This document shows, in pieces, positions 51,451-57,390 of a DNA stretch of 64,000 nt. Under the pieces are notes generated by a model, which made no database searches, was not told where the DNA came from, and was given only the letters and a program-made list of their open reading frames with translations. Location: the NCBI GenBank assembly GCA_963681505.1, contig OY811988.1, positions 2,050,806 through 2,114,805 of the forward strand, read 5' to 3'. This DNA comes from Eunapius fragilis. Its lineage: Eukaryota; Porifera; Demospongiae; Spongillida; Spongillidae. The stretch's first letter is position 1, and each line of letters starts with the position of its first letter. Position numbers and translations under genes: made by a program.

Positions 51451-51728
51451 TAATAAAAACATTCTCTACACGAGAAGGTTGGTGGTATATAGGAATCAAA
51501 GGTGATGGTGGTGTAAAAGCAAGGGAACAAGACTTCTGATTGAAAAGGAAAAATGAAATAGACCTATATTAGCAGCATGTTGTCATATTTTAATGTGCGT
51601 GCTAATATAGGTCTATTTCATTTTTCCTTTTCAATCAGAAGCCTTGTTCCTTTGCTTTTTACACTACCATCACCTTTGATTCCTATATACCACCAACCTT
51701 CTCGTGTAGAGAATGTTTTTATTACTTG
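51451..51728. mobile_element. Palindromic MITE family P, copy C
   Basis: Left arm TAATAAAAACATTCTCTACA...CTATATTAGCA; right arm complementary, ending GAGAATGTTTTTATTACTTG. The element-specific inner arm TTCTGATTGAAAAGGAAAAA pairs with TTTTTCCTTTTCAATCAGAA. A handful of mismatches over about 120 bases. Loop about 51575-51602. Confidence 0.9.
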
Positions 51729-52274: not shown

Positions 52275-55200
52275 TAAACCTCGACCCTAGCATTCCTAAA
52301 GGCATACAGAGCCAGGGCATATGCTATAATAATGAACCGCGACTTGACCTATCGACCCTACCATCCCTAAAGGCTGGACCTAACTAGGCCGAGCTTGAAC
52401 CAGGCATACAGCCAATAACCAGTCATACTGGTGCTTTTATATACGTTTTGAAACTACTCTTAGTCTTAGTATGCCTGGTTTGAATATATTTAACACCGCG
52501 TCCGTGAAATTCGAGCACCTTTTAAGCCCATTTTGTCGAACTAGTAAAAACAAAAAATAGTCTCATTAGGTCCCTTACTAAAAAATAATATTAGGTGTTT
52601 TGAAACAACTCTCTGCATAGCGTATGGCACAATTTGCAGTATTATATCTATAGCTGATCGCAGCCTGCATTTATTTGAAGCCGCGAGGTTTAGCCCGTAC
52701 CGATAAAAGGTACACTTTTTTTGTACTGCTTTTAACACTCCAAAACAAATGCAGTTTGTTGAATTAGAACTATGAAAGCCTATAGGTTATAAAAACGTAT
52801 GTTTCCTATGCACGCGCCAATGTTTGCACTCGTGTCTTTTACCAAACGATTGCTCAACAGCTTTTTTTCTCGTACCCAGTCCTATTTACGTCAATTCATT
52901 GCGCACATGCTCATATTATAACAAACGAATTGGCATGTGTTGTACTATCAGTGTCTGATTTTATCCATGTGTTCCTTGGTACGAATTATGAGCTCAGGTT
53001 TGTTACCAGTTTTTTTCAGACTGTGATGGCAAAGATAGGCTTGAAGCTCAAGCTTTGTCCACATAGTGAGGTCCTTTTGCAAATCACAATCCTGGTAAGA
53101 TACCTTAGCCTTCTTGGTTCCATAGTCTGCTACATCATCCGCACGAGGCCTTCCACGCTTCTTACATGTACCAGCACATTCTGCCTGTGGTTTGCTACCA
53201 ATTCTTTGGTACACTGCCCGTATCTTCCCAGGAAGTGGAAGCTCACTTAGTCGAATTGCCTTCTGTAGCTGCATTTCATCCAACCTGGCATAAACACCAT
53301 CAGCTGATATCTTAACATTACCATGTTCTTTATTGTCTCCTGCTTTCCAGCATTCTTGGATGACATTGGTAACCTTGAAGGAGAGCTCTGGGTGCATGTT
53401 TTTTTTTGTATGAGCCCAACCTGCATAAAAGTTTGGCTCAAATGTTGCGTATGTTGCTTCACCATCACCCAAGAACATACTTGCACTTTGATCAATTGCA
53501 CCAGCAATGGAGAAGTCCATCCTAGCTAGAAGTTGATCAGCATGTTTCATTGCAATGTTAATAGCATCTTGAGATTCTGCATTCTCATTGCACACATGCT
53601 GTTCAAGGAGATGTGGTGATCTGAAATGGTACAAACACTTGGCACATTGTGGATAAATGGCTCGAATTTCATCTAAGGCTTTCTCATTGTTACTTTGCAT
53701 TTCTTTGCGTAGCTTCTCTCGTTTACTGACATCAGAGATACTCCTTTTGTACCTCTTTTTGTACTTCTGTGCCTGTGCGCGGTTACTGTTGTCATCACTG
53801 TTGAGAAGCACAGTGACACCTGTAAAGTTGATGTTCACAGAGCCCATCCCCTCTGTCATGGAAACTGCTTGGCATGATGGGATCGATACAGACTTGGATG
53901 GTACCATCTGCCCCAGACTGTTGTAAAATCGAATTATTTTCTGATCATCCATGGTTGTCACATACTGTGCTGCATAGAAATCCGAAATACCCATAATGGT
54001 GGGAATAACAGCAAACCGATACGGGGCCTTGAAATCTAACTTAACCAACAACACTGTTGAATTGCGTACAGGATTCTCCATCAATGCCACAGCAAGCTGC
54101 TTAGGTGTTGACACCTTTCTTCCTCCCTCTCCCTGGACAAGGTAGTTATCCATATGAGTTTGCTGGTGCGAGAAGTGCGTGTCGCACACATCTTTTCCAC
54201 TTTGGGCTTCGTTGTGAAAATAGGCCACAAGCTTTAGCCCTGAAGCACTACACACATGTGGCAGGAACAGCTTGGTCTGCCGGCCAGCTAAGTTCTTCGC
54301 ATTGTCACTTTGAACAATGATCTTCTCAACATGGGGGAACCGTAGCTTCAAGGCACGAAAAGCTGCCTCCAAACAAGATAGTACAACATTGGCATCCGCT
54401 TTCTGCTCTCCTTCTACGATACAGTCTATGAAATGCAGATTCACTTTATCTTGAGTGCTATCAGTTTTCTCTTCATCTGTTTCATCGACTTGCTCAGAAG
54501 TGATACATCCCTGCTCTTTATCACTGGCATCATCTTCAATCTCATCTTGCAGCATATTTTCACCTCCATTCTGTGTGTTTTCTTCTATCTCATTTTCACC
54601 TTGAACATTACGCATGACAAACCCCACCTTACATATAGCCCTCACATCTTGCTCACTGTCACAATTTTCACCCTGATTGTCAAGCTGATCTTGCTCACTA
54701 TTACCCTCAACACACTCTTCACCACTCTTGACATCATCTTCATCACTTTCATCTTGCTCATCATCCACATTGACCTCATTCACCAGCTGCATAGTATGCT
54801 GCTGTGATTGAGATTCATTGGCTGTAAAGTCTATCACCACATGCAGTTTCTCATCTCGGGACCCATCACCCTCATCATGCACTCCATCTGTATCTGACTT
54901 TACATGAACACCAGCACCCCACCACAACATACCCTTCTTTCCATAATAACTGTCACCACCTTCACGAAAACCCTTGGCAAGAAACTTTTGCTTGAAGTCA
55001 AAGACTAAATATGCAGTTTTGGAGTCCATTTCTGCCATGGCTTGCTTCATCCTGTGCTCCTGATGGGCAGCCTGCATAACATGAGCCATGTAGCGATAAG
55101 ACCGGCGCTCGCACTGATGAATGGTCACAAGTGCATCCGAAATTTCAGCCAACCTACTGGTGTCTTCATCTAGCTTGGACAGGGCCACATGCCTCAGCTT

Positions 55201-57390
55201 ATCATAAAATAGATAAGGGCCTCGGCAGGCACAGCATTCCAGGCGACCACCGGGTTTAGGCTCCTTGCTTGGCTTTTTGTCAGGCACAAGATCAAGCGAA
55301 AATCCTGGCGAGTGTGTGGTAGCACTTATGCTTTCATTGCGTTCCAACACTACACCAACAGCTTTAGCACAGGAACTGAGCTGGCTTCGAACCTGGTTCA
55401 CAACTTGTTGCTGTATTGAAGATACTACAAACCTGTCTGGATATTGAACTAACTCATTCAATTTCTGGTAAGCTCTAAACTGTTGAACATCATGTTCCTG
55501 AGAATGATGCATTGGAAGGCACACCAATTCCGCATCAAATGCATTGACACCCTCTCTCACATGGACCCCATAGCAGTAGTTGAGAAATGTATATGCATCA
55601 GACCGGAGACTGTACAAAGTGTCACGTAATGAATGGTCTACATCTGCGAGAGGTGCAAGCACATCGATTACTTTGTCAACAATGACAAAGTTATCTTTAT
55701 GAAAGTTGACCTTAATATAGTCAACCCCAGCCCGAGCTTCATGATGCTTGCCACCACCAGTGATGTGGTTAACAATATCATAGAACAGGGTTCTTCCCAC
55801 TGGTTTTTTGCCAGGCATCTCCTCAGTGTGCTTGTCCAAGTACACTTTGTACATTGTAGAGATGTCATGCCTGAGTACCAAGGACTTCATTGCATGTATA
55901 TTCTTCAGATCCTTCCACCTTAAATCCTTGTTTGGAGCACGCTTTTTGGCTTGCCACGCAAGGCGGCATATGTTGTCATTGCTGTACACATAGTTTACAA
56001 CATAGTGAATGCTATCCTCACTTACACGAGAGTGTGTCTCAGCATAATTCTGAAGATTCAAACCATGTGAAAGATACAGTTTGTCTACCTTAGCTTGAAA
56101 CATAATGTGTTTTACATAGCCAAGATTCAGTGTGAGAAGGGATGCCACGTATTTCCTTGGTGCATCTGCTAGAGGCACAAGTAGTCGTCTTGCATTCAAA
56201 GAGGTGAAACGTTTTTCACATTTCAATGCATCTCTGATATTAGAGGTTATGCTGGTGAGCATTGTAGTAGCAGATGGCGGGAGATCATCAGAAAGAAAAT
56301 CTGTTTCAGTGACCTGCAACTGGTCTAATGGAGCCAGAATGGATTTAAGACTGAAAACCTTCTTCACCTCACAATGGTTCTTCAGATTCCAGTTAGGAAC
56401 CAACATTCGTGCCCAGGCCAGGATGCCACTAACAAACACTTTCTCTATTCTATTCATGGTTGAAATATCAACATCATCATCAGATCGCATATGCTGCCTT
56501 ATCTCAACACTTGGAAGCCGCCGCACAAAGGTTTCATGTCCCCTAGATCCCATGGCTTCCAGTACCTTCAATATCTGTGCCTGAGTTGTGGAATCGATAA
56601 CTGAAATAACTGGGTCATCATCTTCATCGTCCGCGACGGCAGTTTCATCAAGATCGACTCTAGCTGCTGCGTGCTCCGGGCTGATTGGCACAGCAACCTT
56701 CTTCGGCCTACCACGTTTGCGATCGATGCATCTGCAGCACTTGGTACAATGTGTTCCTGCATCACATTTGTCACAAACTGACTTTCTATGTTTTTCGTAA
56801 CACGCAAGCCGCGGCATGCCATACAAGTAATTATATATCGGACGAACAAGTTAATTAACCGATGTGGACTGGTATGAATAAATTATATTTCAGTACGAGC
56901 TAAACGTTCAGTTTGTACACCTAAAGAAGCTGAATTTAGACGTGATACTGCCTAGACTCTCTAGTTAGGCAAAAATAAATGGGCAGGGTGTGCCCAATTC
57001 GAACACAACGGTCTACAAAAAAAGTGTACTATGCAACCACTTACCGTTAAGAAAATGCGAACCGTGTTACTTTAAATACATACATCGCACGATTGGTTGT
57101 AACTATTATAGTGGGGATTTCTTCAAACATATAAGCGAGAGTTGGGCTTTCTTTTGATGTATTTTACACCTCACATACTAATAGTGAGACTAATTTTCTA
57201 TTTCACGAGTTCGACAAAACAGGTGCTCGAATTTCACGGACGCGGTGTTAATAATATATGCCGGTTGGAGCCAGGCCTGGGTAGGTTCAGCCTCTGGGAT
57301 GATATCTCTAGTCGTGGCTCAATTCTATAGCACTAGTAGCCTGTATGCCTTAGTTGGAACTGGTCTAGGGGTTCATTATGATTATCGCCA
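52275..57390. mobile_element. Large TIR DNA transposon with a single-exon 1289-residue protein (superfamily not recognised)
   Basis: Sequence left of the ORF and the complement of the sequence right of it align over more than 200 bases: CTAAAGGCATACAGAG / CTAAGGCATACAGG; GGCTGGACCTAACTAGGCC / GGCTGAACCTACCCAGGCC; then TAACACCGCGTCCGTGAAAT plus TCGAGCACCT identical on both sides (52484 and 57252), and TTTTGTCGAACT. TACACTTTTTTTGTA also occurs in both arms (52710, 57020). The left arm carries an extra short palindrome (AACCAGGCATAC...GTATGCCTGGTT). The exact outer ends and any target duplication are unresolved. The distal half of family H copy 1 (24150-24220) shares the TAACACCG...GTCGAACT block. 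Confidence 0.75.
52948..56817 (-). CDS. Putative RNase-H-fold (DDE-type) transposase with AT-hooks and SAP-like C-terminus, 1289 aa
   Basis: Intronless, uninterrupted frame from ATG 56817 to the stop at 52948. Residues 6-30 form a Cys/His cluster (C6, C15, C18, H23, C24, C27, C28, C30), followed by AT-hook RKRGRPKK (33-40). A CCACRG knuckle lies near 545. Candidate catalytic residues: D607 (LVFDFKQKF), D838 (VQSDNAKN) and E870 (YFHNEAQSGKDVC), with an acidic insert of about 150 residues between the first two. A second zinc knuckle, CAKCLYHF...HVC, lies near 1055-1075. A second AT-hook, KKRGRPRADD, is near 1220. A SAP-like helix pair closes the protein (WTKLELQAYLCHHSLKKTGN, then PELI). The catalytic assignment is inferred from motif shape and context. 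I know of no named superfamily it clearly fits; an intact frame implies recent activity or constraint. Confidence 0.85.
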   Translation of the reverse strand: MPRLACYEKHRKSVCDKCDAGTHCTKCCRCIDRKRGRPKKVAVPISPEHAAARVDLDETAVADDEDDDPVISVIDSTTQAQILKVLEAMGSRGHETFVRRLPSVEIRQHMRSDDDVDISTMNRIEKVFVSGILAWARMLVPNWNLKNHCEVKKVFSLKSILAPLDQLQVTETDFLSDDLPPSATTMLTSITSNIRDALKCEKRFTSLNARRLLVPLADAPRKYVASLLTLNLGYVKHIMFQAKVDKLYLSHGLNLQNYAETHSRVSEDSIHYVVNYVYSNDNICRLAWQAKKRAPNKDLRWKDLKNIHAMKSLVLRHDISTMYKVYLDKHTEEMPGKKPVGRTLFYDIVNHITGGGKHHEARAGVDYIKVNFHKDNFVIVDKVIDVLAPLADVDHSLRDTLYSLRSDAYTFLNYCYGVHVREGVNAFDAELVCLPMHHSQEHDVQQFRAYQKLNELVQYPDRFVVSSIQQQVVNQVRSQLSSCAKAVGVVLERNESISATTHSPGFSLDLVPDKKPSKEPKPGGRLECCACRGPYLFYDKLRHVALSKLDEDTSRLAEISDALVTIHQCERRSYRYMAHVMQAAHQEHRMKQAMAEMDSKTAYLVFDFKQKFLAKGFREGGDSYYGKKGMLWWGAGVHVKSDTDGVHDEGDGSRDEKLHVVIDFTANESQSQQHTMQLVNEVNVDDEQDESDEDDVKSGEECVEGNSEQDQLDNQGENCDSEQDVRAICKVGFVMRNVQGENEIEENTQNGGENMLQDEIEDDASDKEQGCITSEQVDETDEEKTDSTQDKVNLHFIDCIVEGEQKADANVVLSCLEAAFRALKLRFPHVEKIIVQSDNAKNLAGRQTKLFLPHVCSASGLKLVAYFHNEAQSGKDVCDTHFSHQQTHMDNYLVQGEGGRKVSTPKQLAVALMENPVRNSTVLLVKLDFKAPYRFAVIPTIMGISDFYAAQYVTTMDDQKIIRFYNSLGQMVPSKSVSIPSCQAVSMTEGMGSVNINFTGVTVLLNSDDNSNRAQAQKYKKRYKRSISDVSKREKLRKEMQSNNEKALDEIRAIYPQCAKCLYHFRSPHLLEQHVCNENAESQDAINIAMKHADQLLARMDFSIAGAIDQSASMFLGDGEATYATFEPNFYAGWAHTKKNMHPELSFKVTNVIQECWKAGDNKEHGNVKISADGVYARLDEMQLQKAIRLSELPLPGKIRAVYQRIGSKPQAECAGTCKKRGRPRADDVADYGTKKAKVSYQDCDLQKDLTMWTKLELQAYLCHHSLKKTGNKPELIIRTKEHMDKIRH

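Follow-up and report, generated by a model that had tools for sequence, protein, structure and literature searches.

A TTAA-flanked transposon of the sponge Eunapius fragilis with a near-fixed subterminal motif and a transposase outside the family models searched

The tetranucleotide TTAA is the target of Sola3 DNA transposons and is also duplicated by piggyBac, which uses DDD chemistry. Kolobok elements duplicate TTAA as well and exhibit RR...YY termini (PMC9587614), and their transposases usually carry a THAP domain and an H2CH finger (PMC6004289). Sola transposases exhibit a DDD triad and 4-bp target site duplications (TSDs) (PMC10741241). Sola1, Sola2 and Sola3 each have their own profile (PMC10294476), and Sola3, a recognised group (PMC4455052, PMC10294476), is the most abundant repeat around the RxLR genes of Phytophthora sojae (PMC11139960). 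The P element combines terminal repeats with an inner inverted repeat at unequal spacings at its two ends, with a 9/21-bp difference between tip and binding site and inner-repeat spacers of approximately 100 bp (400 bp in zebrafish) (PMC7776569). Here, we describe a 4,754-bp element in a 64,000-nucleotide stretch of contig OY811988.1 of Eunapius fragilis (positions 2,050,806 to 2,114,805, forward strand), hereafter the window, from whose first letter coordinates are counted. The element is very probably an autonomous cut-and-paste DNA transposon, a reading based on its tips, the TTAA duplication, single-TTAA sites, near-identical copies, a deletion derivative, purifying selection and a near-fixed motif distance, all read from the DNA, together with a predicted RNase H fold of the transposase core. 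It represents an intact, apparently recently active sponge TTAA transposon whose transposase has no curated transposase-model match in the libraries searched, and its slightly asymmetric inner motif makes it testable whether transposases gauge the length of the DNA at their ends.

The first-pass annotation placed an intact transposon with terminal inverted repeats (TIRs) around one open reading frame (ORF) at 52275..57390. Inverted arms (52484-52523/57218-57257 plus 52531-52568/57182-57219) are present around a single 1,289-aa frame, and the identical 27-nt tips, the TTAA on both sides and the near-identical genomic copies agree with an intact TIR transposon. The range contains the transposon but is too wide: since the exact element spans 52494-57247 plus TTAA, approximately 0.2 kb of its left end and 0.14 kb of its right end are outside DNA. 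These ends and the TTAA duplication were fixed by other copies in the genome (219 Mb, 24 contigs), a search for which the annotation had proposed. At the DNA level, at least 107 matches were found, six of which are whole elements, namely the window copy and five others at 99-100% identity. The other 101 listed matches represent incomplete or diverged copies, or else the inverted tips of copies that appear elsewhere in the list. As the DNA searches omit very common words and score the best candidates only, all copy counts are lower bounds. Tips with at most one substitution delimit all six full-size copies, which places the arms beyond chance, and TTAA is found at both ends in each of the six. 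Any two of these copies are separated by 4-24 substitutions and 0-5 indels (n = 6); three of them keep the complete transposase frame, and the remaining three have shorter open frames. A 2.18-kb deletion derivative (L018; length from its positions) exhibits both tips and TTAA. The termini read CACC...GGTG in the nine copies inspected and at the ends of a third family described below. On contig C23, numerous family copies are broken and in part inverted (L007-L014). The features of the window element are listed in Table 1.

Table 1. Features of the window element, with positions in the window and the basis of each assignment.
Feature	Position	Strand	Basis or remark
Complete transposon, 4,754 bp	52494..57247	- (transposase gene strand)	tips common to 6/6 full-size copies; letters checked
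Target site duplication TTAA, left	52490..52493	.	letters checked
Target site duplication TTAA, right	57248..57251	.	letters checked
TIR, element 3' end, 27 nt	52494..52520	+	identical; inward similarity imperfect
TIR, element 5' end, 27 nt	57221..57247	-	
Subterminal motif GTACACTTTTTT, base 217 from element 3' end	52710..52721	+	
Subterminal motif GTACACTTTTTT, base 219 from element 5' end	57018..57029	-	
Transposase ORF, 1,289 aa from ATG	52948..56817	-	stop at 52948-52950
N-terminal Cys cluster, residues 15-30	56728..56775	-	84-row alignment
AT-hook-like motif, residues 33-43	56689..56721	-	below Pfam cut-off
RNase-H-like catalytic core, residues 601-895	54133..55017	-	predicted structure
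D607, strand 1	54997..54999	-	80/81 letters, 84-row alignment
Acidic insert between core strands 2 and 3, residues 641-791	54445..54897	-	low model confidence
D838, end of strand 4	54304..54306	-	69/72 letters, 84-row alignment
D879, first in helix after strand 5, preferred third acid	54181..54183	-	68/68 letters, 84-row alignment
C2H2-like knuckle C1058-C1061-H1074-C1076	53590..53646	-	direct reading of sequence
SAP-like C-terminal region, residues 1249-1277	52987..53073	-	below Pfam cut-off here

In an empty-site test, the flanks of an insertion were joined with one TTAA and searched against the genome, with 40 of 685 candidates scored. For five of nine insertions, this gave a genomic match across the joint that carries one TTAA only; therefore, TTAA is present in one copy before insertion and in two after it. 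The L002 insertion, which lies in a multi-copy hAT element (Pfam Dimer_Tnp_hAT, E 1.4e-14), has empty sites at 23 places, four of which are 100% identical over 304 nt, and L003 has four such places (94-99%). Two copies of a second family (see below) yielded four places at 95-98%, one of the best two being without net length change (C6 copy), and nine places at 92-97% (C9 copy). The near-identical copies and the single-TTAA sites bear out the recent mobility suggested earlier, and this evidence supports the view that the window element is a recently mobile, copied cut-and-paste transposon. The other suggestion, that a host gene was domesticated from a transposon, is highly improbable. The long open frame and the between-family purifying selection would also suit such a gene, but six near-identical copies with intact tips, the single-TTAA sites and the presence of several other families with open frames all speak against it.

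These related families were found by a protein search of the genome, which listed at least 58 matches. In 17 of the listed places, the match starts near the start of the protein, contains no stop and lies in an open frame of at least 1,300 codons. The second family exhibits ORFs of 1,355-1,376 aa and tips reading CACCGGATCC, and the third exhibits tips reading CACCGGTTCC, with TTAA directly before them. Synonymous differences have reached saturation between the window gene and the second family, with a proportion (pS) of 0.76-0.77, against 0.27 for non-synonymous differences (pN). Inside the second family, the ratio of non-synonymous to synonymous changes (dN/dS) is 0.19-0.28 (three pairs). 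The families thus appear to be held under purifying selection from one to the next, as a working transposase should be.

The transposase comprises 1,292 aa if an upstream TTG is taken as the start. The N-terminal Cys cluster, the acidic stretch and the second zinc knuckle noted in the first reading are all seen in the sequence. In the 84-row alignment, whose counts are of letters, the cysteines are nearly invariant (C15 38/40, C18 37/37, C24 38/39, C30 43/43). The AT-hooks and the SAP-like end stand only in part: GRP motifs and a SAP-like end are present, but the Pfam scores of the window copy remain below cut-off, at 13.4 bits against 17.4 for the AT-hook and 16.7 bits against 23.9 for SAP, the latter being exceeded in two of nine scanned relatives. 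Within the AT-hook-like motif, G36 is kept in 26/26 and R37 in 27/45 letters. No transposase family was matched in Pfam (10 family proteins), NCBIfam (three proteins) or the PDB sequences, which bears out the initial impression of no recognised superfamily as far as these libraries go.

Two AlphaFold models, obtained along the lines proposed in the first-pass annotation, give an RNase H fold for the core. In these models, D607 and D838 occupy the positions required by the fold, E870 directly follows the fifth strand, and D879 stands at the start of the helix that comes next. E619 is kept in 78/78 letters and E870 in 66/67; in a second alignment, the E870 column has E in 64/65 and the D879 column D in 63/64. 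As E870 and D879 are near-equally conserved in both alignments, conservation does not choose between them. The protein P0196 reads SVSGNGKTNLD in the region of the third acid, with the D present and no E, and is taken to be the source of the lone V in the E870 column. In such folds, the third acid sits on the helix after strand 5. The previously proposed triad D607/D838/E870 can therefore be retained for its first two residues, which fit the fold, while E870 is doubtful: D879 is preferred because it fits the fold better, so D607-D838-D879 is the more likely triad on the models, with E870 still possible. Retroviral integrase and Mos1 cores have 7-15% identity to this core, a modelled likeness in fold only. 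VIA-align covers only chains ranked by Foldseek, and families missing from its rows are not thereby excluded. Against viral proteins, Foldseek returned nothing at E <= 0.001.

The element and its genomic copies exhibit the features of DDE/D cut-and-paste transposons: terminal inverted repeats, a target duplication, a pre-insertion site (five of nine insertions) and, from models and conservation, a predicted RNase H fold with three conserved acids. Several results weigh against this assignment. With 40 of 685 candidates scored, a match spanning the joint was absent for four of nine joined flanks, including those of the window copy, and the single empty site of L006 (94%) is net 5 nt shorter and lies within a tandem-repeat region. 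In the window family, dN/dS ranges from 0.13 to 0.54 on three to six coding changes only, being 0.40-0.54 between the window copy and two near-identical copies and 0.13 between those two. By Foldseek alone, neither model had a PDB match at E <= 0.001. Lastly, model confidence is lower at residues 611-630 (62, 51) and 871-880 (69), the stretches that hold E619 and the third acid.

The motif GTACACTTTTTT occurs twice in the 64-kb window, against 0.02 occurrences expected by shuffling. In family-representative ends, the best or equal-best match to this motif is at base 219 in nine of nine 5' ends, of which three are near-duplicates and two have two-mismatch forms only, and at base 217 in four of four 3' ends. 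A genome-wide motif pattern allowing 31 spacings gave 127 matches, against none for the reversed control. Among the 100 of these matches that were listed, 68 ends have the motif at 217 (31), 218 (13) or 219 (24), and the other 32 have it elsewhere between 203 and 230. When neighbouring + and - matches among the listed ends are taken as end pairs, the exact 217/219 spacing is found in 16 of 26 pairs and in 16 of the 17 pairs of at least 4.5 kb, the exception being a 4.6-kb element with 208/218. A looser spacing of 207-227 is seen in nine short elements (1.1-2.5 kb) that have both ends; such short two-ended elements, for example C2:2276586-2278434, are probably non-autonomous relatives. Among the decayed copies on C23, the motif is displaced to 191, 185 and 196 (L007, L011 and L014, respectively), and the deletion derivative L018 has a two-mismatch motif at 219 and 215.

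We interpret this near-constant 217/219 spacing as a probable rule on length set by the end complex. Descent from a common ancestor alone, with no constraint on length, is an unlikely explanation. It would follow from the shared ancestry of all families, and 14 of 15 pairs of 5' ends align gap-free over 230 bp at 51-65% identity, the remaining pair having one gap on each side; moreover, the 16 exact pairs include many copies from a small number of families. Against it, synonymous sites between families are saturated and the start codon shifts, lying at 405-471 in six families and, as a less certain candidate, at 355 in the family with a 1363 frame; for the family F4_651, no start codon was found. 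In addition, a block near base 50 is shifted by one base in two families, with the register restored by base 95, which suggests compensating changes. Spacers of distinct families are 30-60% identical, against approximately 26% by chance; F8, F9 and F11 were counted as one family because their spacers are 98-99% identical. The lowest identities are those of the 1363-frame family, which exhibits two-mismatch motifs only and a spacer at or near chance in several comparisons.

In the mechanism proposed here, the Cys cluster, the AT-hook and the SAP-like region would bind the CACCG tip as well as the inner motif, and the 5' end (motif at 219) would be paired with the 3' end (motif at 217), the near-constant spacing being a constraint of the complex so formed. 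D607, D838 and D879 would coordinate the metal ions, and after excision the element would join TTAA with a 4-base stagger. Inner repeats and unequal end spacing are already known in principle from P elements, which share with this element terminal plus inner inverted repeats and unequal spacing. In contrast, the P element has an 8-bp TSD and a THAP domain, and the asymmetry here is 2 bp at approximately 218 bp.

Among named proteins, those of the freshwater sponge Ephydatia muelleri come closest. Identity in the named matches is no higher than 72-77% and extends over part of the protein, apart from short segments, in which it rises to as much as 82% across 6% of the query. Iterated protein searches, each scoring the best 7,995 candidates, reached P0109 and P0110 and then at least 85 proteins. 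The listed relatives, most of them unnamed, include the diatoms Dactyliosolen fragilissimus (by record taxid) and Ditylum brightwellii, the copepod Lepeophtheirus salmonis, Phytophthora fragariae and metagenome proteins, and a profile of the sponge proteins matches a profile of the distant relatives at E 8e-20. Pattern-based scans of viral contigs and genome contigs found no relatives of the family. The named relatives are annotated as hypothetical or uncharacterized proteins, so the element would help to close an annotation gap.

Regarding superfamily placement, the leading candidate home is Sola3, already catalogued in other species, to which we give about an even chance. The 4-bp TSD of Sola fits TTAA, and its DDD triad would be shared if D879 is right (PMC10741241). 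Sola3, with a profile separate from those of Sola1 and Sola2 (PMC10294476), is abundant in P. sojae (PMC11139960), and relatives of the present protein occur in P. fragariae. Nevertheless, this likeness is one of description, and the profile matches to a suspected Sola2-like family of the same genome are weak. That family (L053, L059, L061-L064) is transposase-like, with the motifs D-F-x-(E/Q)-N-Y-S, DG and HGK, and has at least 120 genomic matches by protein. One of its proteins was scanned and had no Pfam match, and pattern-based scans made with this second family likewise found no relatives. From its motif HGKGPCDG, we take it to be presumably Sola2-like. Profile matches between it and the transposase have E values of 0.016, 0.023, 0.34 and 0.49, and the catalytic motifs are in register in three of four full comparisons and in a core test. 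As the matches are weak and the real core score (18.2) falls within that of 200 column shuffles (mean 13.7, maximum 25.0), kinship between the two is not claimed.

Kolobok and piggyBac share the TTAA duplication with this element but are very improbable homes. The CACC...GGTG termini differ from the RR...YY of Kolobok (PMC9587614), and none of the 10 family proteins scanned matched a model of the THAP domain usual in Kolobok transposases (PMC6004289) or a piggyBac model; piggyBac is also missing from the PDB sequence matches. As far as the accessible text of the literature goes, and with Repbase outside that search, no description of this element was found. Tentatively, and with less probability than Sola3, it may belong to an undescribed TTAA-targeting superfamily extending across animals, diatoms and oomycetes, whose transposase would measure its ends, 219 on one side and 217 on the other, an asymmetry that may pair the 5' with the 3' end. 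Both TTAA and the inner motif were observed in this genome only, and the spread of such a superfamily is drawn from the protein relatives.

Outside the element, the window contains a nested near-perfect palindrome (51451-51724) with arms of 68 nt and 60 nt (99% and 97%), possibly a small transposon.
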